Shown here piece by piece: positions 17,950 to 63,568 of a DNA stretch of 64,000 bases (positions are counted from its first letter, which is position 1; the number at the start of each line of letters is the position of its first letter). Position numbers and translations under genes: made by a program. The notes beneath the pieces are model-generated. The model ran no database searches. It was not told the origin of the DNA and saw only the letters and a list, made by a program, of their open reading frames with translations. Origin of the DNA: Apostichopus japonicus (lineage: Eukaryota > Echinodermata > Holothuroidea > Aspidochirotida > Stichopodidae); the NCBI RefSeq assembly GCF_037975245.1, contig NC_092578.1:248001-312000 (forward strand), in the 5' to 3' direction.

Positions 17950-20900
17950 GTAAAATCAACGGCTATTATTACATGGTACCTCTGCTATCCTCAGACTTGC
18001 AACTTTGACTTCCAAATAACAATTACTGTACTAAAAAGTCATAATATATGACTAAACACATTGATATGTCATTTAAAATCAGATCTTATAAGTGTAAGTA
18101 AATGATCCAAACATTTGTGTTACGATAGAATAAAGATAACACATGTTATTTCAAGCATGCAGGATTTTATGTTGTAATGAAATTAATTGAGTATTGAAAA
18201 GTGTTTTCCAAACTTGTTATCCTTGTACCTGATTAGTAGGTTACAATTCCATTTTATCTAACATTAGCAAAGATTCTGCTATGTAAGTTCTAAAGCCTGT
18301 GTGCATTATAGCTGAACCAGAAAAATCGCACGTAGGGAGTGATTGAAACTATACTAGTTCATTTTCAACCTCATTTAAGTCTGTGTTGAGATGTATAGAT
18401 ACTTCAACATATTTTGAACTAGGTTTATTTGTTGGGAAAATTTCTGCACATTGTCCTTTTTCAATGCTAGTTATATTGTTATATATTGCACATATATTGA
18501 AATATATTGCACATATATCCCAGTCTATCAATACTTCCCTATCTGTGAATAAACGCCTGTCTATGAGTACACCCATGTTTATCTTGAGTATGAGCATATA
18601 TTCCTGTCTATGACTTTATCTCTGAGTATGAGCACATTCCTGTCTATGAGTATATCCCTGTCTATAAGTATATCCCTCTCTATGAGTATATCCCTATCTA
18701 TGAGTTTATTTCTGACTGTGATCATATCCCTCTCTATAAGTATATCCCTATCTATGAGTATATCTCTATCTATGAGTTTATTTCTGACTGTGAGCATATC
18801 CCTCTTTATAAGTAAATCCCTATCTATGAGTATATATCTCTATCTATGAGTTTATCTAAATGACGATGAGCACATCCCTGTCTTGGAAAATATCCCTGCC
18901 ATGAGTTTATTTCTGTCTGTGAGCGTATCCTTGTCTATCTGTGAGTATATCCCTATCTATGAGTATATCCCTATCTATGAGTTTATTCCTGACTGTGAGC
19001 ATATCCCTGTCTATCTGTGAGTATATCCCTATCTATGAGTATATCCCTATCTATGAGTTTATTTCTGACTGTGAGCATATCCCTGTCTATCTGTGAGTAT
19101 ATCCCTATCTATGAGTTTATTTCTGACTGTGAGTATACCCCTATCTATTATTATATCTCTCTATCTATGAATATCCCTATCTATGAGTATATAATCCCTG
19201 TCTATGAGTATATCCCAGTCTATGAGTTAATCCCAGTCTATGAGTTTATCACTGTCTATGAGTTTATTTCTGACTATGAGTATATCCCAGTCTATGAGTT
19301 TATCTCTATGAGCACATCCCTATTTGTGAGTATATCCCTATCTATTGTATATCTCTCTATCTATGAATATATCCCTATCTTTGCGTCTATGAGTAACTAT
19401 GTTTCAGTATCTCTTTGTTAACATACCAGACATGGTATGATTTGTACAGTAGTGATTGAGAGCAGGCTATCCCTGTAGATATTTGGCAACCTTAAGACCT
19501 ATTTTTTTCTTTGCATCATTATTGAAAGAGTCTGTTTTCTAAGTGGTTGTGAAATCATTTTTAATTTTATCTTTGTTTTGTAGAACACTATTTGCTAGTT
19601 CAGTTCTAAACTTAGCTGAATTGGTAGCCATGAGACCTGACCTTGCAGGAATGAAGAAGGTATTGTACTTCCATGAAAATCAACTGGTTTATCCAGTGAG
19701 GAAACAACAAGAACGGGACTTTCAGTATGGTTACAATCAGATCATATCCAGGTAAGATAGCAGTTAGATCAAATCTGATTAAGGCTAATTCCGATCTTGT
19801 CATATCAAGGTATGCCAACTTTAATTAGGTCATATCCATGTAACACTACTTGCAATCAGGTCATATCTAAGTGAGAGTAATTGCAATCAGGTCACATCCA
19901 GGTAAGACTAGTTGTAATCAGGTTACATTCAGGTAAGACTTTGCAATCAGGTTACATTCAGGTAAGACTTTGCAATCAGGTGATATTATTCAGGTAAGAC
20001 TTTGCATTCAGGTTATATTATTCAGGTAAGACTAGATGCAATCAGGTTATATTATTCAGGTAAGACTAGATGCAATCAGGTTATATTATTCAGGTAAGAC
20101 TAGATGCAATCAGGTTATATTCAGGTAAGACTTTGCAATCAGGTGATATTATTCGGGTAAGACTTTGCATTCAGGTTATATTATTCAGGTAAGACTAGAT
20201 GCAATCAGGTTATATTATTCAGGTAAGACTAGATGCAATCAGGTTATATTATTCAGGTAAGACTAGATGCAATCAGGTTATATTCAGGTAAGACTAGATG
20301 CTATCAGGTTATATTCAGGTAAGACTACATGCTATCAGGTTATATTATTCAGGTAAGACTAGATGCAATCAGGTTATATTCAGGTAAAACTAGTTGCAAT
20401 CAGGTTATATTCAGGTAAAACTATAGTTGCAGTCAGGTTATATTCAGGTAAGACTAGATGCAATCAGGTTATATTCAGGTAAGACTAGATGCAATCAGGT
20501 TATATTCAGGTAAAACTAAAGTTGCAATCAGGTTATAATCAGGTAAGACTAGATGCAATCAGGTTATATTCAGGTAAGACTAGATGCAATCAGGTTATAT
20601 TCAGGTAAGACTAGATGCAATCAGGTTATATTCAGGTAAGACTAGATGCAATCAGGTTATATTCAGATAAAACTATAGTTGCAATCAGGTTATATTCAGG
20701 TAAGACTAGATGCAATCAGGTTATATTCAGGTAAGACTAGATGCAATCAGGTTATATTCAGGTAAGACTAGTTGCAATCAGGTTATATTCAGGTAAGACT
20801 AGTTGCAATCAGGTTATATTCAGGTAAGACTAGATGCAATCAGGTTATATTCAGGTAAGACTAGTTGCAATCAGGTTATATTCAGGTAAGACTAGTTGCA

Positions 20901-23900
20901 ATCAGGTTATATCCAGGTAAGACTAGATGCAGTTAGGTTATATTCAGGTAAGACTAGTTGCAATCAGGTTATATTCAGGTAAGACTAGTTGCAATCAGGT
21001 TATATCCAGGTAAGACTAGATGCAATCAGGTTATATTCAGGTAAGACTAGATGCAATCAGGTTATATTCAGGTAAGACTAGATGCATTCAGGTTATATTC
21101 AGGTAAAACTAGTTGCAATCAGGTTATATTCAGGTAAGACTAGTTGCAATCAGGTTATATCCAGGTAAGACTAGATGCATTCAGGTTATATTCAGGTAAG
21201 ACTAGTTGCAATCAGGTTATATTCAAGTAAGACTAGATGGAATTAGGTTATATTCAGGTAAGACTAGATGCAATCAGGTTATATTCAGGTAAGACTAGAT
21301 GCATTCAGGTTATATTCAGGTAAAACTAGTTGCAATCAGGTTATATTCAGGTAAGACTAGTTGCAATCAGGTTATATCCAGGTAAGACTAGATGCATTCA
21401 GGTTATATTCAGGTAAGACTAGTTGCAATCAGGTTATATTCAGGTAAGACTAGTTGCAATCAGGTTATATTCAGGTAAGACTAGTTGCAATCAGGTTATA
21501 TCCAGGTAAGACTAGTTGCAATCAGGTTATATTCAGGTAAGACTAGATGCAATCAGGTTATATTCAGGTAAGACTAGTTGCAATCAGGTTATATTCAGGT
21601 AAGACTATTTGTAATCATGTCATATCCAAGTAAGGCTAGCTGCAAGCATATCATATTCAGGTAAGACTAGATGGAATTAGGTTATAATCAGGTAAGACTA
21701 GATGCAATCAGGTTATATTCAGGTAAGACTAGTTGCAATCAGGTTATATTCAGGTAAGACTAGATGCAATCAGGTTATATTCAGGTAAGACTAGTTGCAA
21801 TCAGGTTATATTCAGGTAAGACTATTTGTAATCATGTCATATCCAAGTAAGGCTAGCTGCAAGCATATCATATTCAGGTAAGACTAGATGGAATAAGGTT
21901 ATAATCAGGTAAGACTAGATGCAATCAGGTTATATTCAGGTAAGACTAGTTGCAATCAGGTTATATTCTGGTAAGACTAGATGCAATCAGGTTATATTCA
22001 GGTAAGACTAGTTGCAATAAGGTTATATTCAGGTAAGACTATTTGTAATCATGTCATATCCAAGTAAGGCTAGCTGCAAGCATATCATATTCAGGTAAGA
22101 CTAGATGGAATTAGGTTATAATCAGGTAAGACTAGATGCAATCAGGTTATATTCAGGTAAGACTAGTTGCAATCAGGTTATATTCAGGTAAGACTATTTG
22201 TAATCATGTCATATCCAAGTAAGGCTAGCTGCAAGCATATCATATTCAGGTAAGACTAGATGGAATTAGGTTATAATCAGGTAAGACTAGATGCAATCAG
22301 GTTATATTCAGGTAAGACTAGTTGCAATCAGGTTATATTCAGGTAAGACTAGATGCAATCAGGTTATATTCAGGTAAGACTAGTTGCAATCAGGTTATAT
22401 TCAGGTAAGACTATTTGTTATCATGTCATATCCAAGTAAGGCTAGCTGCAAGCATATCATATTCAGGTAAGACTAGATGGAATTAGGTTATAATCAGGTA
22501 AGACTAGATGCAATCAGGTTATATTCAGGTAAGACTAGTTGCAATCAGGTTATATTCAGGTAAGACTAGTTGCAATCAGGTTATATTCAGGTAAGACTAT
22601 TTGTAATCATGTCATATCCAAGTAAGGCTAGCTGCAAGCATATCATATTCAGGTAAGACTATATGGAATTAGGTTATAATCAGGTAAGACTAGATGCAAT
22701 CAGGTTATATTCAGGTAAGACTAGTTGCAATCAGGTTATATTCAGGTAAGACTAGATGCAATCAGGTTATATTCAGGTAAGACTAGTTGCAATCAGGTTA
22801 TATTCAGGTAAGACTAGATGCAATCAGGTTATATTCAGGTAAGACTAGATGCAATTAGGTTATAATCAGGTAAGACTAGTTGCAATCAGGTTATATTCAG
22901 GTAAGACTAGATGCAATCAGGTTATATTCAGGTAAGACTAGTTGCAATCAGGTTATATTCAGGTAAGACTAGATGCAATCAGGTTATATTCAGGTAAGAC
23001 TAGATGCAATTAGGTTATAATCAGGTAAGACTAGATGGAATTAGGTTATATTCAGGTAAGACTAGATGCAATCAGGGTATATTCAGGTAAGACTAGTTGC
23101 AATCAGGTTATATTCAGGTAAGACTAGATGCAATCAGGTTATATTCAGGTAAGACTAGTTGCAATCAGGTTATATTCAGGTAAGACTAGTTGCAATCAGG
23201 TTATATTCAGGTAAGACTAGTTGCAATCATGTCATATCCAAATAAGGCTAGCTGCAAGCATATCATATTCAGGTAAGACTAGATGGAATAAGGTTATAAT
23301 CAGGTAAGACTAGTTGCAATCAGGTTATATTCAGGTAAGACTAGTTGCAATCAGGTTATATTCAGGTAAGACTAGTTGCAATCATGTCATATCCAAATAA
23401 GGCTAGCTGCAAGCATATCATATTCAGGTAAGACTAGATGGAATTAGGTTATATTCAGGTAAGACTAGATGCAATCAGGTTATATTCAGGTAAGACTAGT
23501 TGCAATCAGGTTATATTCAGGTAAGACTAGTTGCAATCAGGTTATATTCAGGTAAGACTAGTTGCAATCAGGTTATATTCAGGTAATACTAGTTGCAATC
23601 ATGTCATATCCAAATAAGGCTAGCTGCAAGCATATCATATTCAGGTAAGACTAGATGCAAGCATATCATATTTAGGTAATTTGACTAGAATGCAGTTAGG
23701 TTATATCCAAGTTAGACTAGTTGCAATCATGTCTTTTCAAGTTATCGCTAGTTGCAATCATGTCATATCAAGGTAAAACTGTGATGGAAGATAATCTTCT
23801 AGCTAGCTAAAAGTCCATATGTCTATTCCACTATTTACAGAATGTTCCACAGGTGTCTTATTGTTGGTAAATAACCTGGTAAAACAAGCAACACTTTTCC

Positions 23901-29900: not shown

Positions 29901-32900
29901 ACACAACAGCAGCTCTTCAAGAAACTACGAGAATTCTGTAGAAGACCCTGGTTAGCCAAGGCAAAATTCCCAAATGTAAAAACAGCTTTGTTTGAAGTAT
30001 TATAGTACTGTATTACAGTATTATTATTAACAGTATTATTATTAACAGTATTATTATTAACTGTGTTAAGTATGATTTACAGTATTACAGTATTTACAGT
30101 ATTAGTATTAACAGTATGATTAACAGTATTATAAACAGTAGTAAGTATGATTAACAGTATTACAGTATTTACAGTATCATTATTAACAGTACTGAGTATG
30201 ATTAACAGTATTACAGTATTATTATCATAAACAGTATTAAGTATGATTAACAGTATTACAGTATTTACAGTATCATTATTAACAGTACTGAGTATGATTA
30301 ACAGTATTACAGTATTATTATCATAAACAGTATTAAGTATGATTAACAGTATTACAGTATTATTATCATAAACAGTATTTAGTATGATTAACAGTATTTA
30401 CAGTATTATTATTAACAGTACTAAGTATGAGTAACAGTATTACAGTATTATTATCATAAACAGTATTAATTATGATTAACAGTATTACAGTATTATTATC
30501 ATAAACAGTATTTAGTATGATTAACAGTATTTACAGTATTATTATTAACAGTACTAAGTATGAGTAACAGTATTACAGTATTATTATCATAAACAGTATT
30601 AATTATGATTAACAGTTTAACAGTATTTTCAGTAATATTATTAACATTACTCAGTATGATTAACAGTATAACAGTATTATTATCATAAACAGTATTACAG
30701 TATTATTCATAACAGTATTACAGTGTTTACAGTATTATTATTAACATTACTAAGTATGATTAACAGTATTACAGTATTATTATCATAAACAGTATTAAGT
30801 ATGATTAACAGTATTACAGTGTTTACAGTATTATTATTAACATTACTAAGTATGATTAACAGTATTACAGTATTATTATCATAAACAGTATTAAGTATGA
30901 TTAACAGTATTTACAGTATTGTTATTAACATTACTAAGTATGATTAACAGTATTACAGTATTATTCATAACAGTATTACAGTGTTTACAGTAGTGCAGAT
31001 AGTTGTAATCGATTAATCGCCAGTAGTTGCGATTACACTTTGGAAGTTTGATTAATCGCCCTCAAAACCTAAGTTGCAATTACTCAACTACAAGCTAGCA
31101 CTACACATAATCTGCTTTTGAAAAATAGCCTTAGCTATCAAAAACATCATAAAGCAGTTTTGTCAGCAAATATTGCAATAAGTATACAGTTCTCACAATG
31201 CTACACTAACACTGTGCTGTGTTAAAAATTGGCAAGCACCTGCTCCGGCTAGATTCATGCGTTTGCTTGTCAGTAATATAATTGTTCTGAAATGCAACAT
31301 TCAGTCCTAGCAATGTTTAATCAATGCACATAACCCCAAGTTCGTAACGTATTAATCTTTTACGATTGCCAAAGTATTTGTCATTTCTTCAGACATGTTT
31401 ACAATTACTTCATTACTGGCCTGGTTCGTATTTATCGGATGTCTGATAGAGTGTGTCGATTGCAGTGTAGTGTCATTTCAATGTGAAATATATGTGCCTG
31501 CTATTGCGCTAGGCTCCAGCCTAGCCTAGAATGTTGAACGTCCTTCTACAGAAAACTCTTGTATACTTATCATCACACCACTGCAAAGTGTTACATCTAT
31601 TCATTGTGTGCATGTTTACTTTTGTTAGTGCTAGTAGTTTGTAGTAGCCTCGTAGATTCATTCAAAAGTTTTTGATTTACTGTGGAAGATTTAAGAAACA
31701 TAGATTGAAACTTGTTCACAGTTTTTGGTTGGTAGATGTTTAAACATGATTTAGACACCACGCGTTAAGACACGAAAGAACAAATAAGGACAGTGTACCA
31801 TGGAGAAAGATTTCTTTTGACTATATCTGCAATGTAAAATGACAGTAATGAGGTCATATCTATAACCAAGTAATCGCAGTAATCGCGAGAGGAGCTATGC
31901 AATTAATCGACTTTAAAAGAAAGAGTTGACTATCAGCACTAATTTACAGTATTATTAACAGCATTAAGTATGATTGAAAGTATTTACGATATTATTATTA
32001 ACAGTATTAAGTATGATAAACAGTATTCACAGTATTATTATTACAGTACTACAGTATTATTTTTAACAGAATTACATTATTATTAGTAGTATTACAGTAT
32101 TATTATTAGTACAGTATTATTATTGATAGCATTACAATATTATTGTTAACAAATTACATTATTATTTTTAACAGTTTGACAGTATTATTATTAACAGTAT
32201 TATTACTAAAGTATTACAGTATTATTACTAACAGAATTACAGTATGATTATTACTAACAGTATTACAGTATTATTACCAGTTTTTGGTATGATTAACAGT
32301 ATTACATTATTACAGTAGTATTATTATCAAACAGTATGTCAATATTATTTGTAGTATTATAGTATTATTTCTTACATTATTACAGTATTATCACTACCAG
32401 AATTAAGTATGATTAACAGTATCACAATATTATTACTAGCAATATCACATATTATTATTATTAACAGTATTATCATATTTTGCTAACAGTATCATAGTAT
32501 TATCATTAGTAACAGTATTACAGTCTTATTATTACTAACAGTATTACAGTATTATTATTACTAACATTATATTATGGACTATGTGACAAAAGTCTTGTAT
32601 TTAAGCAGTGAACATTACATTGTTTATCCTTTATCCTGTGTGGGCTTGTTTTATTGTCATTGCTGAAGGAACAGCTTCCAACTTTACAAAAAAAAATTCC
32701 CAATGTCAAGACGCAATAAGTACACCCCTTCTCCCCCTCCCCCACTCCCACCACAAAGAAAACATGGTTTGATATTCTACCTGTAGCTCTGTAATAAAAA
32801 ATGTCTTACAAAACTTCTTTGTTGAAATTGCATTTCAGATCGACTTTAGCAGATTCAGCCAAGATTGTCTTCTTCCGAAGTATGAAGCAATTTTGAAGCC

Positions 32901-34929: not shown

Positions 34930-35797
34930 GTTGTGTGCATTATGTGATATAGAATGTAATGGTTGTGTGCAGTGTGTGATATAGCATGTAATGGTTGTGT
35001 GCAGTGTGTGATATAGAATGTAATGGTTGTGTGCAGTTAGTGATATAGAATGTAATGGTTGTGTGCAGTGTGTTATATAGAATGTAATGGTTGTGTGCAG
35101 TGTGTTATATAGAATGTAATGGTTGTGTGCAGTGTGTGATATAGAATGTAATGGTTGTGTGCAGTGTGTTATATAGAATGTAATGGTTGTGTGCAGTGTG
35201 TTATATAGAATGTAATGGTTGTGTGCAGTGTGTGATATAGAATGTAATGGTTGTGTGCAGTGTGTGATATAGAATGTAATGGTTGTATGCAGTGTGTGAT
35301 ATAGAATGTAATGGTTGTATGCAGCATGTGATATAGAATGTAATGGTTGTATGCAGTGTGTGATATAGAATGTAATGATTGTGTGCAGTGTGTGATATAG
35401 AATGTAATGGTTGTGTGCAGTGTGTGATATAGAATGTAATGGTTGTGTGCAGCATGTGATATAGAATGTAATGGCTGTGTGCAGTGTGCGATACAGAATG
35501 TAATGGTTGTGTGCAGTGTGTGATATAGAATGTAATGGTTGTATGCAGCATGTGATATAGAATGTAATGGTTGTGTGCAGTGTGTGATATAGAAGGTAAT
35601 GGTTATGTGCAGTGTGTGATATAGAATGTAATGGTTGTGTGCAGTGTGTGATATAGAATGTAATGGTTGTGTGCAGTGTGTGATATAGAATGTAAGTGTT
35701 TTGTGCAGTGTGTGATATAGAATGTAATGGTTGTGTGCAGTGTGTGATTTAGCATGTAATGGTTGTGTGCAGTTTGTGATATAGAATGTAATGGTTG
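34930..35797. repeat. 32-bp satellite, left block
   Basis: Unit is TGTGTGATATAGAATGTAAT followed by GGTTGTGTGCAG, about 27 copies. The minus-strand reading lacks stop codons in all three frames, giving long artificial open frames. Confidence 0.95.
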
Positions 35798-36437: not shown

Positions 36438-37190
36438 AATGGTTGTGTGCAGTGTGTGATATAGAATGAAATGGTTGTGTGCAGTATGTGATATAGAATG
36501 TAATGGTTGTGTGCAGTGTGTGATATAGAATGTAGTGGTTGTGTGCAGTGTGTGATACAGAATGTAATGGCTGTGTGCAGTGTGCGATACAGAATGTAAT
36601 GGTTGTGTGCAGTGTGTGATATAGAATGTAATGGTTGTATGCAGCATGTGATATAGAATGTAATGGTTGTGTGCAGTGTGTGATATAGAATGTAGTGGTT
36701 GTGTGCAGTGTGTGATATAGAATGTAAGTGTTTTGTGCCGTGTGTGATATAGAATGTAATGGTTGTGTGCAGTGTGTGATTTAGCATGTAATGGTTATGT
36801 GCTGTGTGTGGTTCAGCATGTAGTGGTTGTGTGCAGTGTGTGATATAGAATGTAATGGTTGTGTGCAGTGTGTGATTTAGCATGTAGTGGTTATGTGCAT
36901 TGTGTGATTTAGCATGTAGTGGTTGTGTGCAGTGTGTGATATAGAATGTAATGGTTATGTGCAGTGTGTGATTCAGCATGTAGTGGTTATGTGCAGTGTG
37001 TGATTTAGGATGTAGTGGTTGTGTGCAGTGTGTGATATAGAATGTAATGGTTATGTGCACTGTGTGATTCAGCATATAATGGTTATATGCAGTGTGTGAT
37101 TCAGCATGTAGTGGTTGTGTGCAGTGTGTGATATATAATGTAAAGGTTGTGTATGATGTGTGGTATAGAATGTAATTGTTGTGTGAATTC
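36438..37190. repeat. 32-bp satellite, right block
   Basis: Continues the 34930-35797 array with more variants (GATTTAGCATGTAGTGG, GGTTATGTGCAG). Decays near 37140-37190. Confidence 0.92.
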
Positions 37191-40287: not shown

Positions 40288-41148
40288 GGTGACATCCCTA
40301 TGTTCCGACGTCTCTATGTTCCGACGTCTCTATGTTCCGACGTCTCTATGTTCCGACGTCTCTATGTTCCGACGTCTCTATGTTCCGACAAATTGTTTGG
40401 ACTCTAATTTTTTTTGACCAAATTTTATTCTGACCCCATTTGTGACCCAATTTGTCTTCGGACCCCATTTTTTTTGTACCAAAATTTTTTTGGACCCAAT
40501 TTTTCTTTGGACCAAAATTTTTTGGGACCCAATTTTTTTTCGGACCCTATTTTTTTGACCCAATATCTTTTCGGACACCATTTTTTGGACCTAATATCTT
40601 TTTGGACCAAATTTTTTTTGGACCCAATATTTTTAGGGTACCCAATTCTTTTGGACCAAATTTTTTTTGGACCCCAATATCTTTTTGGACCAAAACTTTT
40701 TGGGACCCAACTTTTTTCGGACCCCATTCTTTTGTAACCCAAAATTAGGTCCCAAAAAATAAGGTCCGATAAAAAAATGGGTCCCCAAAAATCGGGTCCA
40801 AAAAATTTAGGTCCAAAAAAATTGGGTCCATAAAAAAATTGGGTTGAACAAAAATTGGGCCCGAAAAAAAATTGGGTCCGAAAAAATGTTGGTCCAAAAA
40901 AATTGGGTCCAAAAAGAATGGGGTCCGAAAAAAATTGGGTCACAAAAAAATGGGTCCGAAAAAATTTTGGTCAAAAAAAATTAGAGTCCAAACAATTTGT
41001 CGGAACATAGAGACGTCGGAACATAGAGACGTCGGAACATAGAGACGTCGGAACATAGAGTCGTCGGAATATAGAGACGTCGGAACATAGAGACGTCGGA
41101 ACATAGAGACGTCGGAATATAGAGACGTCGGAACATAGAGATGTAACC
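40288..41148. mobile_element. Foldback (TU/FB-like) element, 861 bp, 8-bp target duplication
   Basis: Nearly the whole element is one inverted repeat. The outer left arm is six 16-bp direct repeats (CTCTATGTTCCGACGT) and the outer right arm about nine inverted copies. Inner arms are T-rich on the left (GGACCAAATTTTTTT-type units) and complementary A-rich on the right, meeting near 40740. The termini GGTGACATC and, inverted, GGTTACATC are flanked by GTTAATGT on both sides (40280-40287 and 41149-41156). Arms made of short direct repeats are the hallmark of foldback transposons such as Drosophila FB and sea urchin TU. No transposase is encoded; open frames inside are low-complexity by-products. 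Confidence 0.85.
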
Positions 41149-58739: not shown

Positions 58740-58831
58740 TCATGCATTGTACTCTGGAAGGATGTAAGAAATATCATCCCACGGATGGCGGTACAGACCC
58801 TGCTTCAGTCTTCTTTGGTCTAAATAATGAC
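58740..58831 (-). CDS. ACLY: ACLY last coding exon
   Basis: Acceptor TTTCCTAG, then [29 protein letters not shown] and TGA. Two leading bases complete a Gly codon with the previous exon. The human protein ends similarly, LPEHMSM. Confidence 0.93.
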
Positions 58832-61800
58832 CTAGGAAAGTGAGTAAACGATAGATGTAATAATGTGATAGTTGTAACAATATGATAGTTGTGACAATAT
58901 GATAGTTGTAACAATATGATAGACAGACAGACAGACAATTATAGATAGTTGTAGATAGATAGATAGTTATAGATAGATATAGATAGTTATAGATAGATAG
59001 TTATAGATAGATAGTTGTAGATAGATTTAGATAGTAGTAGATAGTTGTAGATAGATAGATAGTTGTAGATAGATTTAGATAGTTGTAGATAGATATAGAT
59101 AGTTGTAGATAGATAGATAGTTGTAGATAGATATAGATAGTTGTAGATAGATAGTTAGTTGTAGATAGATATAGATAGTTGTAGATAGATAGTTGTAGAT
59201 AGATATAGATAGTTGTAGATAGATGGATAGTTGTAGAGAGATAGTTGTAAATTGACAGACAAAGAGACAGATACATAGGCTTACCAATGAAACCCATACT
59301 CCTCCCAAGCACAAAGAGGGCATTCAGTGTTCCCATCTCCACATACTCTGCTGCTTCTTCACTGTAAGAAATAAAAGATCAATATTTTCACACCTGTCTT
59401 CCAGCCTTTCTCAATATCTTCCACAGAACCTCAGATCATATTTAGTAATCAGATAACTCCTATGAAGATTATGATGTGAATATAGTAATTTGTTCACAAT
59501 TACCTTGTGAAAGCTCCACAGTTCCTCAGCAAGTCTACCATGGCAGCTCCAATGACACCATCCACATTTAATATCAAGTTTGGTTTCTATTCAAGACAGA
59601 AAGTAAAACAAGTATGCTTTCAGTTTTGTTTATGCAGCATCAAAACAACCCATAATGCTGTTAATTTCATCACACAGGCTTTAACTACCCAAACATTTCA
59701 TGCATACTACAATGTTTTACATAGGGTACCATATGTAATAATTGATTTAAATAACAGGAATCAGCAGCATATGCACTCTTTGGTGTTTGTTGTATTAAAT
59801 CTATCAGCAAAGTATTGAACACTAAATTAAGTACTGCTCTCAACAAGCAGAACTCATAAAACCTCTCCAGTGACTCATTATTTAAACTAACAACTATACT
59901 AACACAGAGTAATAAACCTTCACCATGCTTAGCAATGTATATAGCATAAACACCATTCTATAATGTAGATATGCACCTTAACATACTCATAGGTATAGGC
60001 TTTGAGATATTTACCTTAGCTGTTGTGATTTTCTCCACTTTAAGAGCCCAATCTAGCAATGGAGTTGCTGGAAAGTTAGCTTGAGCATACTCCTTCAGAA
60101 TCACCACACGTTTGTCTGGATTGTTCAGCTAGTAGAAGTGAAAACAATAGCGATGATTATGCAATGAATGTTCAGTTGTTTTTGTGCACTGCATAAAATT
60201 AACCATCTTCACTTTTTCAGTGTCTTTGCAATGTTAACAATTCCTTTGAAATATTGTGGAGGAATACTGATAACAAAGAAAGGGAGAAATATCATTAATG
60301 CTGTAGAGTGCATTTAATGAGTAACTACATCCCAGAAAAGTAACATTCATTTAAATTTAAATACTGTATTTACTCCACATTCTTGTGCAATATGAGTGTT
60401 CATATTTATACTTACAGATTTAACTCTATGACCAATTCCCATGATAAGCTTGTGTTCAGCTCTCATCTTATTGACAAATTCCATTGGAATAAGCCCACTG
60501 TCATAAGCCTCTGTGTACTGTTTAGCAGCTCCATCTAATGCCCCTCCAAATCTTTCTCCCTGGAAGAAAATCATTCAATTCCACTCAACTACAATGACAA
60601 TCAACAAAGAAACCAACAAATGCAGGCTCAGCAACAAAATGGAATCAACCAGAAGTGTGTATACATAATATCTGGCAGTGGGAGAAGGGTACCAGCATGC
60701 TGACCTAGCCAAGATATCAGTAGTAGTTAAAACATCAATCTCTAATGGCGTTATTCATTGCAATGACAAAAAAGTCAGCTTTATAAACTTAATGTGATCA
60801 GAACGAACCCACCAAGGTTACAGTCTTGATGCAAGGGGACTTGAGATGGAGAGTGTTTCTGCCCAAGCTCTATTGTGGGTGATGTATACACCCAGACATG
60901 GATAGTATCCAATACTAAATCATTCAGTACTCTTTGTTGAACAAATGTCAACTTACAATAGTCAAGAGTCCTGAACACAAGGATGAGATAAGATCCTTGC
61001 CTGCCCGGGCCGTTACGATGCAGTTGTGGGCCCCAGACACTGCTGGACCATGGTCAGCTGATATGATCAGACACATCTCAAGGAATTTAGTAGCATAGGG
61101 AGGCAATCTGATGGAACAAACATAAGAGTATTCAGGATTACCAGTGATTGGGGGATATAAGAAATTACAATATACAACCCTCTGCTTTATAACAATCCTT
61201 ATTACAACTACCACAGCTAAAATATTCTAAACTCCCTGGGCTAGTTTGACAGTATCTGCAAGCTGGTTCTTAGAGGTACACATAGGACGCCACATAAACC
61301 AGGAGGCCAGAGTTACCTATTATTCATCATTTGTACCATTCTAACTGATTTCAAAATGCACTAATGATCTCCATCTGTAAGCAGAGTCCAATATGCTGAA
61401 ACAGACTTCAATAACAATAATTAACCATCTGTCTGCTTAGTCAGATGTCCACAATAAGAACCAAGCTGGCCACTAAAATAGAAGAACAGACAAAACCATC
61501 ATAGTGAATAAGTGGTACTAATATAACCTACAAAGGCAGGATAATGAGAGGAATAGTCTTATCTCCTCCCCCACCCCCACCACACCCCCCTCCCCCATCC
61601 CAATCCTTCACAGAAAAAATTTAACTCACTGACCCAAGTTAACACAAATTCATAGAAACTGACAAACTGCATTTACAGTAACTGAACAGATAATAAATAC
61701 ATTTCTCTCATTACATGACACTGTTTGTTTGCACTTCTAATATAATATTGTTCTATAAATGAATCAAGCTGAAAACCAACCTTCTCTGGAACCAAAGGAG

Positions 61801-63568
61801 AGACAAGGTACCTCCAATCCCAACATTTTTCTCAAACACATCTGAAATGGGCATACCTCCATAGAGGAGTTCCTGGCCTCTCTCATCCACAATACTTGTC
61901 ATAAATGATGCAGGTTTACGAATTAAGCCAAGTTCCTAACAAGAAGTAAAATATAAAATGGATTATCACTCTCATGACCAGCATAAACAGGTTTAATCAT
62001 TAGCATGTTCAAAGACTACTCTGGACATGAGATGAAGTATACACCTGTAATCTAAGACTTGTTGAAGTATGCTCTGGCCAACTTAAGACAATGAAAAATG
62101 TACTTTACAGGCTGATCTGTGAAAGGAAATCGTTTGCTAACCAGAAAGCATAAATATAGTTAATGCTTTATTGGTAATAAGTTCAAACTGCAAGAAATTA
62201 TAATCTTGTAAATACCTACAATGAAATTTCTACTAGAAACCATAATCTCACATCCCAGTCAGCTTCAAAATGTGGTCTCAAAGTATGCAAATATCCTGTG
62301 CAATCCACACAGTCAAGACAAAAGTACTGTATCAACTGCTATAAGTTGCTTAATGTAGACAGAGTATAGAGGGAGAACTATGGATATAATTAGGATATAC
62401 TGACTTACTATTGCCAAGTTGAAGTCCATTGGTACTGTAGGTGGACTAGAGAGGGAGAACTATGGATATATTGAGGATATATAGACTTACTCTTGCCCAG
62501 TTGAAGTCCATTGGTACTGTAGGTGGACTAGAGAGGGAGAACTATGGATATATTGAGGATATATAGACTTACTATTGCCCAGTTGGAGTCCATTGGTACT
62601 GCAGGTGGACTAGAGAGGGAGAACTATGGATATAATTAGGATATACTGACTTACTATTGCCCAGTTGAAGTCCATTGGTACTGTAGGTGGACTAGAGAGG
62701 GAGAACTATGGATATATTGAGGATATATAGACTTACTCTTGCCCAGTTGAAGTCCATTGGTATTGTAGGTGGACTAGAGAGGGAGAACTATGGATATATT
62801 GAGGATATATAGACTTACTCTTGCCCAGTTGAAGTCCATTGGTACTGTAGGTGGACTAGAGAGGGAGATTTATGGATAAATTGAGGATATATAGACTTAC
62901 TCTTGCCCAGTTGAAGTCCATTGGTACTGTAGGTGGACTAGAGAGGGAGAACTATGGATATAATTATGATATACTGACTTAATCTTACCCAGTTGTAGTC
63001 CATTGGCACTGTAGGTGGACTAGAGAGGGAGAACTATGGATATAATTAGGATATACTGACTTACTATTGCCCAGTTGAAGTCCATTGGTACTGTAGGTGG
63101 ACTAGAGAGGGAGAACTATGGATATAATTAGGATATACTGACTTACTCTTGCCCAGTTGTAGTCCATTGGTACTGTAGGTGGACTAGAGAGGGAGAACTA
63201 TGGATATAATTAGGATATACAGACTTACTCTTGCCCAGTTGAAGTCCATTGGTACTGTAGATGGACTAGAGAGGGAGAACTATGGATACAATAAGGATAT
63301 ACTGACTTAATCTTGCCCAGTTGTAGTCCATTGGTACTGTAGGTGGACTAGAGAGGGAGAACTATGGATATAATTAGGATATACTGACTTACTATTGCCC
63401 AGTTGAAGTCCATTGGTACTGTAGGTGGACTAGAGAGGGAGAACTATGGATATAATTAGGATATACTGACTTACTCTTGCCCAGTTGAAGTCCATTGGTA
63501 CTGTAGGTGGAGGTACCTCAGGCTGAGGGACAATCTTTCCTTCTTCAACAAGCTGATTATAAACCTCA
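58740..63568 (-). CDS. ACLY: ATP-citrate lyase (ACLY), C-terminal eight exons, gene continues off the right edge
   Basis: Coding exons in transcript order: 63568-63475, 61935-61781, 61107-60957, 60559-60416, 60128-60015, 59586-59504, 59361-59285, 58831-58740 (910 nt, about 302 residues). All junctions are GT-AG and phases agree. ACLY is the cytosolic enzyme that makes acetyl-CoA and oxaloacetate from citrate, CoA and ATP. This part is the citrate-synthase-homology (citryl-CoA lyase) domain. Its catalytic residues are present: [13 protein letters not shown] (human His900), [10 protein letters not shown] (His975) and LNVDGVIG (Asp1026). The C-terminus [20 protein letters not shown] and SYILPE ends close to the human one. 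The intron between the first two exons contains an array derived from the first exon's end. The N-terminal ~800 residues are outside the window. Confidence 0.95.
58860..59270. repeat. GATA/GTAGATA microsatellite array in the last ACLY intron
   Basis: Irregular repeats of GATAGTTGTAGATAGATA fill almost all of the intron between 58832 and 59284, beginning shortly after the splice donor of the preceding exon. Confidence 0.93.
59285..59361 (-). CDS. ACLY: ACLY exon (penultimate)
   Basis: Encodes [26 protein letters not shown]. Acceptor TTCTTACAG, donor CATTG|GTAAGC, phase 1. Confidence 0.93.
59504..59586 (-). CDS. ACLY: ACLY exon with catalytic Asp
   Basis: Encodes [20 protein letters not shown] and RNCGAFT; the Asp of NVDG corresponds to human Asp1026. 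Acceptor TTGAATAG, donor CAAG|GTAATT, phase 2. Confidence 0.93.
60015..60128 (-). CDS. ACLY: ACLY exon
   Basis: 38 codons including [38 protein letters not shown]. Acceptor TTCTACTAG, donor TAAG|GTAAAT, phase 0 at both ends. Confidence 0.92.
60416..60559 (-). CDS. ACLY: ACLY exon with catalytic His (GIGHR)
   Basis: 48 codons, [20 protein letters not shown] through [10 protein letters not shown]; its His matches human His975. Acceptor TTTTCTTCCAG, donor AAATCT|GTAAGT. Confidence 0.94.
60957..61107 (-). CDS. ACLY: ACLY exon with catalytic His (ADHG)
   Basis: Encodes [39 protein letters not shown] and [10 protein letters not shown]; the ADHG His matches human His900. Acceptor TTCCATCAG, donor CTATT|GTAAGT. 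Confidence 0.94.
61108..61780 (-). other. ACLY: ACLY intron, nothing notable
   Basis: Single-copy AT-rich intron with a C-rich tract near 61564-61600. Confidence 0.6.
61781..61935 (-). CDS. ACLY: ACLY exon
   Basis: Encodes [39 protein letters not shown] and SLLWFQR. Acceptor TTCTTGTTAG; donor GAAG|GTTGGT is a GT donor with a weak consensus. Phase 2 at the end. Confidence 0.93.
62395..63474 (-). repeat. 82-bp minisatellite derived from the ACLY exon end and splice donor
   Basis: About 13 units. On the minus strand each contains TTCTCCCTCTCTAG, then a 37-nt piece ending with the real exon's last 36 bases (TACAGTACCAATGGACTTCA, ACTGGGCAAGA), then GTAAG. Thus each unit has a pyrimidine-AG acceptor-like site, an exon fragment ([11 protein letters not shown] in frame) and a donor. 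The array abuts the true exon at 63475 with its own donor in the same register, so it arose by tandem duplication of that junction. Some units have GTAAG with one change (AATAGTAAG, AAGATTAAG). Confidence 0.95.
63475..63568 (-). CDS. ACLY: ACLY first exon in the window
   Basis: Encodes [20 protein letters not shown] and [11 protein letters not shown], matching the human region [19 protein letters not shown] that links the CoA-ligase part to the citrate-synthase-homology domain. Acceptor TTATTTCCATTAG, donor GCAAGA|GTAAG, phase 0. Upstream exons are beyond the window. Confidence 0.94.

Follow-up and report, generated by a model that had tools for sequence, protein, structure and literature searches.

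The 64,000-nt stretch of the Apostichopus japonicus genome analyzed here (the window) carries on its minus strand the C-terminal exons of the gene for ATP-citrate synthase (ACLY), and one of the introns between them contains a long array of 82-bp repeats. The initial annotation had named the gene correctly: the 82 aa encoded by the two exons that flank this intron match residues 800-880 of the human enzyme (E 1.4e-36). In a tblastn search of the window and the 10 kb that follow it on the contig, with a human ACLY query, exons for residues 498-1098 follow one another in order from 69954, within those 10 kb, down to 58749, and the N-terminal part lies beyond that DNA. Only one ACLY locus was found when the genome (671,581,487 bases in 35 contigs) was searched with the C-terminal 300 aa. 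The gene therefore presumably works despite the array, and a duplicate locus that could relieve it of constraint was discarded on the same search. The array matches the genome at one place, itself, in a search that skipped very common words. No part of the window matched an Rfam structured RNA at gathering thresholds.

A separate observation from the same assembly concerns its mitochondrial contig (C35), which starts with COX1, followed by genes that we take to be ND4L and COX2. At sites such as STNHKD, the COX1 translation has Asn if AAA is read as Asn (code 9) and lysine under code 5, the former being the echinoderm code. Pieces of COX1 are also found on another contig (C29:14745-16086 and 30842-31219), which may be rearranged or nuclear mitochondrial DNA.

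Anatomy of the ACLY array

Tandem Repeats Finder, run on the window, describes the array as 14.0 copies of an 82-bp unit with 94% matches, 0% indels and a score of 1985 (62368-63511). Read on the gene's strand, the unit consists of the terminal 37 nt of the ACLY exon that ends at 63475 (one T followed by 12 codons) and the first 45 nt of the adjoining intron, which we call the mini-intron. The array thus repeats an exon end together with its donor into the intron, as had been proposed, although the exon fragment had been put at 36 bases. Fourteen copies can be laid out in phase, comprising the authentic exon end with its 45 nt of intron (copy 0) and 13 decoys (copies 1-13); the earlier count of about 13 holds for the decoys, with the authentic copy coming on top. 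The features of the locus are collected in Table 1.

Table 1. Features of the ACLY locus (window coordinates) and exon-end duplications of a CCT gene on contig C21
Feature	Position	Strand	Remarks
Authentic ACLY exon	63475..63568	-	94 nt by nearest AG; copy 0 spans its final 37 nt (63511-63475)
Authentic donor GTAAGT and first 45 nt of intron	63430..63474	-	mini-intron half of copy 0, ends CTCTAG
13 decoy units of 82 bp	62364..63429	-	37-nt piece and 45-nt mini-intron each
Unrepeated rest of 1539-nt intron	61936..62363	-	reaches authentic acceptor TTGTTAG
Next ACLY exon	61777..61935	-	match limits; phase-0 junction after R (AGA/GAA)
Remaining C-terminal ACLY exons	58749..61109	-	matches 61109-60957, 60559-60410, 60128-60015, 59586-59503, 59360-59283, ~58840-58749
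C21 CCT gene duplications			121 bp x 7.1; 46 bp x 11.8; single extra copy with donor lost

The initial annotation held that every unit carries CTCCCTCTCTAG before the exon fragment, and this is so for all 13 decoy pieces, each directly preceded by CTCTAG; the authentic copy lacks it. Its description of each unit as acceptor, exon piece and donor fits 11 of the 13 decoys when the donor GT is used as the criterion (12 of 14 copies with the authentic one), while copies 2 and 6 read TTAAGT. Copy 6 also has a C-to-T change that creates a new GG/GTAAGA inside its exon piece, and the last unit ends in CTCTatac in place of CTCTAG. Nonsynonymous differences are present between the copies. The array qualifies as a minisatellite (tandem units of ~10-100 bp in several copies) and as an exon-boundary internal duplication (a unit that combines exon sequence with the neighboring splice site, here 37 nt and GTAAGT).

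Copies 2, 4 and 6 (63347-63266, 63183-63102 and 63019-62938) read TAC (Tyr) at a position where the authentic exon reads TTC (Phe). Human ACLY has Tyr at this position, so that an earlier form of the coding sequence may be preserved in the array, or the agreement may be due to chance.

The window was also scanned for microexon-like pairs, defined as an acceptor scoring at least 3.6 and a donor scoring at least 3.27 at a distance of 25-60 nt. All 11 such pairs on the strand of ACLY lie inside the array, the remaining 62.8 kb of that strand being free of them, and five occur on the opposite strand at the same thresholds. The number of pairs in the array is more than chance.

The stretches of this genome that we read are rich in minisatellites, some of which span exon borders. 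Within the window, a 31-bp unit with CAGGTAAG, which resembles a strong donor on the plus strand, is repeated about 127 times at 19823-23780, and one 32-bp unit forms two arrays ~640 bp apart (34930-35797 and 36438-37185). Two mutually reverse-complementary minisatellite blocks at 40298-41141 form a large foldback-like palindrome, with CTATGTTCCGACGTCT (5.8 copies) and GTCGGAACATAGAGAC (8.9 copies) on the outside and TTTGGACCCAATTTTT-type repeats and their complement on the inside. A further ACLY intron holds an array of 11.6 copies of a 60-bp unit (L006:5072-5762, corresponding to G000:C18:317072-317762), with GGGTAAGT on the strand opposite ACLY.

Decoy splice sites and the transcripts they would allow

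The splice sites of the decoys are comparable in quality to those of the gene itself. Scores were computed with weight tables and ranked against 65 introns from the control stretches described below. By this measure six decoys out of 13 share the sequence of the authentic donor (26th percentile) and five donors score slightly higher (28th percentile), the other two being those without GT. Twelve of the 13 decoy acceptors score 3.61 (18th percentile) and the remaining one 1.87, compared with 3.91 (22nd percentile) for the acceptor of the array-bearing exon itself and 6.09 (65th percentile) for that of the next exon.

The geometry of the units is less favorable. The 65 sampled introns measure 129-3797 nt, none being near 45 nt, in a sample biased against very short introns, across which HMM hits would merge. 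The shortest (129 nt) separates a pair of kinesin matches in L025 that both lie in 263-aa frames, and this gap is possibly not a true intron; after it comes one of 183 nt. Gaps between neighboring exon hits are similar, with a shortest value of 132 among 62 gaps and of 180 among a further 24. Splicing ahead to copy 2 or beyond would give introns of at least 127 nt, so that intron length bars splicing between adjacent copies only. The exon piece is itself short: in PMC4317164, exons of at most 51 nt are described as tending toward skipping, possibly by crowding, and the 37-nt decoy exon is under that size.

Inclusion of one decoy would bring in a stop in 13/13 cases, and inclusion of two in all 78 pairs, while three decoys would leave the frame open in 251 of the 286 triples and add 37 aa. 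The frame arithmetic of the initial annotation, in which one or two copies shift the frame and three keep it, is thus upheld. Two further outcomes were absent from it. Use of a downstream donor in place of the authentic one would lengthen the exon and run, at the 15th codon, into the in-frame TAG where two units join, and an ATAG lying 14 nt before the junction AG could serve as an alternative acceptor, giving a 51-nt in-frame exon.

The second of these outcomes would make each unit an in-frame module that adds 17 aa per copy with no frameshift. The upstream AG is present before 12 of the 13 pieces and the 51-nt stretches are open through the junction in 13/13, but wherever the AG is kept (12 copies) the ATAG acceptor reaches only the 0th-8th percentile, and the in-frame phase has a one-in-three chance of arising anyway. 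We consider this reading exceedingly unlikely.

Low, unregulated use of the decoys is another possibility, in which frameshifted or extended transcripts would be destroyed and the rate of mis-splicing would rise with copy number. Such splicing noise agrees with decoy sites that score near the gene's own, with the in-frame TAG at the 15th codon behind a downstream donor, and with the stops that always follow single or double inclusion. Strong noise in a gene for which a single locus was found should however be selected against, and yet 13 decoys are present. We regard this explanation as unlikely, although it is one to be kept in mind.

The initial annotation had suggested that the array could act as a copy-number-variable splicing switch, with three copies adding an insert of 37 aa, while one or two would give unproductive transcripts that lower ACLY. 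Both splice sites are intact in 11/13 decoys, and the frame arithmetic is compatible with such a role (251/286 triples stay open). The insert would fall at the R/E junction, a few residues before the start of a separately solved 270-aa ATP-citrate synthase chain (6hxk_A), and might therefore be tolerated. Against a switch stand the two dead donors, the nonsynonymous differences between copies, the short exon piece, and mini-introns of 45 nt that are shorter than any sampled intron. The exon pieces moreover have no excess conservation, and arrays of the same type occur in unrelated genes, as detailed in the next section. Taken together, these points make a regulated switch very unlikely.

Boundary duplications in other genes and tests for constraint

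The frequency of similar arrays was estimated from exon hits to three protein families of this one genome, with hit ends that only approximate exon ends. The first control set comprised 100 exon hits (20 myosin and 80 kinesin) in 32 stretches totalling 114.2 kb, which were picked for dense hits and not at random. From two lists of kinesin and myosin matches, 69 of 70 rows of one and 101 of 126 rows of the other were taken, the 100 hits being those inside the 32 stretches; rows left out include C18:971555-972109, with nine internal stops, and C18:428674-428757. A second set took in 24 stretches (55.3 kb) with 53 exon hits to CCT, from 53 of 57 rows, the other four lying in two apparently intronless frames. 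Protein-kinase exons were dropped as a control, many of their matches being in long single frames or near-identical families.

As a side observation, about ten kinase matches on contigs C1, C7, C21 and C22, covering model positions ~25-257 in frames of 249-273 aa, resemble a dispersed intronless family.

Tandem repeats cover 7.3% of the kinesin/myosin stretches and 13.3% of the CCT stretches. Among the 100 kinesin/myosin hits, eight are overlapped by a tandem repeat over at least 10 nt, compared with 12.2 (sd 2.4) when the repeats are shifted randomly, and 6.1% of 2000 random shifts gave eight or fewer overlapped hits. There is consequently no enrichment at exons to explain. Seven of the eight overlapping repeats are duplications of an exon border that include the splice site (twice in L010, and in L021, L029, L032, L038 and L040); a weak interior repeat (L021:3375-3431) was not taken as a border case. 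The CCT set contains three border duplications (two in L047 and one in L056).

A search for copies of exon ends, in which the terminal 30 nt were compared with the adjoining 700 nt, gave scores of at least 22/30 for 11 of 306 ends and for none of the controls. It added a case in L046 and also flagged L058, which is one of the 11 and was not counted since the hit over-runs the exon and the array is intronic. Altogether, an exon end of at least 20 nt is duplicated with its splice site at nine of the 153 kinesin, myosin and CCT hits, seven on the donor side and two on the acceptor side. In two further hits (L021:2196-2404 and L056) the copied exon sequence is only ~9-10 nt long, and these were tallied separately. 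Loss of the decoy donor is seen in L046 and in the donor-side duplication of L010. The ACLY array is therefore not unique, boundary duplications being present at 9 to 11 of the 153 sampled exon hits.

One CCT gene, which we take to be CCT8 (L045-L047, L068 and L069; G000:C21:16408560-16420413), has three exon-end duplications (Table 1). As in ACLY, its two arrays (L047; 46 bp x 11.8 and 121 bp x 7.1) repeat an exon end and donor into the intron. The 46-bp array also resembles the ACLY array in carrying both donor and acceptor signals, with TTTCAG before the 30-nt piece in most units. It differs in that only ~16 nt separate the donor from the next acceptor, and this acceptor lies at the 0th-2nd percentile of those sampled.

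Five arrays were compared for differential constraint by wrap-around alignment of their copies, with the same treatment for all. In a regulated cassette or tandem alternative exon, the exon copies would be expected to be constrained relative to the intron. Among the ACLY decoys (authentic copy left out), 8/37 exon columns and 11/45 intron columns are variable (Fisher p 0.80), the copies differ pairwise by 0.052 on average in the exon part and by 0.073 in the intron part, and the donor is lost in 2/13. There is no differential constraint in the ACLY array. In the array CCT8a the exon part is less variable (2/62 vs 9/59, p 0.027), as it is in MYO_C4 (3/89 vs 10/71, p 0.019), where the intron part is microsatellite-rich. 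In CCT8b the exon part is the more variable (11/30 vs 2/16, p 0.10), and in KIN_C16 the counts are 5/33 and 22/108 (p 0.62). The donor GT is kept in 39/41 decoys of the five arrays.

With the five arrays pooled, exon parts vary less than intron parts (29/251 vs 54/299 variable columns, p 0.042), a signal that is carried by CCT8a and MYO_C4; leaving out MYO_C4 gives 26/162 vs 44/228 (p 0.43). The arrays together thus have at most weak and inconsistent constraint, which gene conversion or faster mutation of the intron part could also produce. The pooled difference may point to some constraint, or to gene conversion, in arrays other than ACLY. An earlier divergence test that located copies by fuzzy anchors on the exon piece was rejected, as it caught only 5/14 ACLY copies and selected them by exon similarity.

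Interpretation and comparison with known systems

The explanation that we favor, and consider probable, is that the array is a minisatellite spanning the ACLY exon boundary, that the splice signals of its units are passengers, and that the whole array is most likely removed by splicing from 63475 to 61935. It would have started with a tandem duplication across the exon-intron border. Where the 45-nt intron of one unit meets the next copy, the junction reads as a pyrimidine-rich AG; ACLY is the array whose unit junction adds a usable acceptor. The first donor adjoins the full 94-nt exon. Each decoy would in comparison be a 37-nt exon between 45-nt introns, and would be poorly defined because both the exon piece and its flanking introns are too short. 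Exon definition should thus favor the copy contiguous with the whole exon, decoys being without a partner site or too short, and the decoys are most likely skipped for the greater part. If this advantage is retained, boundary arrays would be nearly neutral and could persist. The ACLY array resembles a side effect of the genome's richness in repeats more than it does a switch.

Several observations sit less comfortably with silent passengers. The decoy acceptors are not weak (12/13 are near the score of the exon's own), introns of at least 127 nt are within reach via copy 2 or later, the donor GT has survived in 39/41 decoys of the five arrays, and the exon parts vary less in the pooled test of these arrays.

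An origin of the unit as an introner-like mobile intron was also considered. In favor of it, the 45 nt of the mini-intron include a donor, a CTAAT resembling a branch site, and a pyrimidine-rich AG. The unit nevertheless contains ACLY's own exon end, and the near-identical copies dispersed over many intron positions that mark an introner were not found in the genome search that skipped very common words, the array being the sole match. This origin is accordingly rejected as vanishingly improbable.

A broader possibility concerns the class of arrays. Several per cent of coding exons in A. japonicus may have tandem copies of their ends, splice site included, in the neighboring intron, in which case thousands of exons would face decoys that hardly differ from the real site; at ACLY, where both signals are present in most decoys, a measurable share of transcripts that depends on copy number would use them, and exon-boundary minisatellites would be a widespread cause of heritable splicing variation in this lineage. 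We put this forward as a speculation that is unlikely in its full form.

While the single ACLY locus is a curiosity, the class of boundary arrays is useful. Local site strength is nearly constant within such arrays while the distance to the partner site, piece length and copy number vary, and the arrays therefore offer a natural experiment on exon definition, testing how real sites are chosen over decoys. If the spliceosome always takes the copy contiguous with the whole exon, the arrays measure the strength of that rule; if it does not always do so, heritable variation in splicing, as well as new exons and introns, can arise from them. Gene predictors applied to genomes rich in minisatellites could also be misled by such arrays. 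In the literature searched (titles and abstract openings, with few subscription papers covered), no report of exon-boundary arrays in sea cucumbers or of the ACLY array was found, and what is possibly new is the apparent frequency of boundary arrays in the A. japonicus genome.

Minisatellites that touch splice sites have precedents. In a case attributed to Turri (1995), a minisatellite with short units reportedly multiplies donors in an interferon-induced transcript of the 6-16 (IFI6) gene. The likeness to ACLY lies in the multiplied donor; the units of that minisatellite are said to carry donors only, whereas those of ACLY add an acceptor and so make up a whole decoy microexon.

In human genes of segmental duplications, minisatellites (30-bp units with four repeats on average) are located at exon-intron boundaries and are said, in PMC2812944, to cause alternative splicing by way of novel introns. 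The position at an exon-intron boundary is shared with the ACLY array. The human repeats were compared with transcripts and belong to recently duplicated genes, whereas the ACLY array lies in an enzyme gene for which one locus was found and has a donor and an acceptor in 11/13 decoys.

A second relative is intron gain by tandem duplication, for which PMC4974935 cites Rogers 1989 and Gao & Lynch 2009 and describes a fission-yeast case of a 24-bp AGGT segment that underwent repeated duplication and is removed by splicing as an intron. Both that process and the ACLY array involve tandem duplication across splice signals within a gene; in the former a new intron is made and spliced, whereas in ACLY an existing intron is lengthened.
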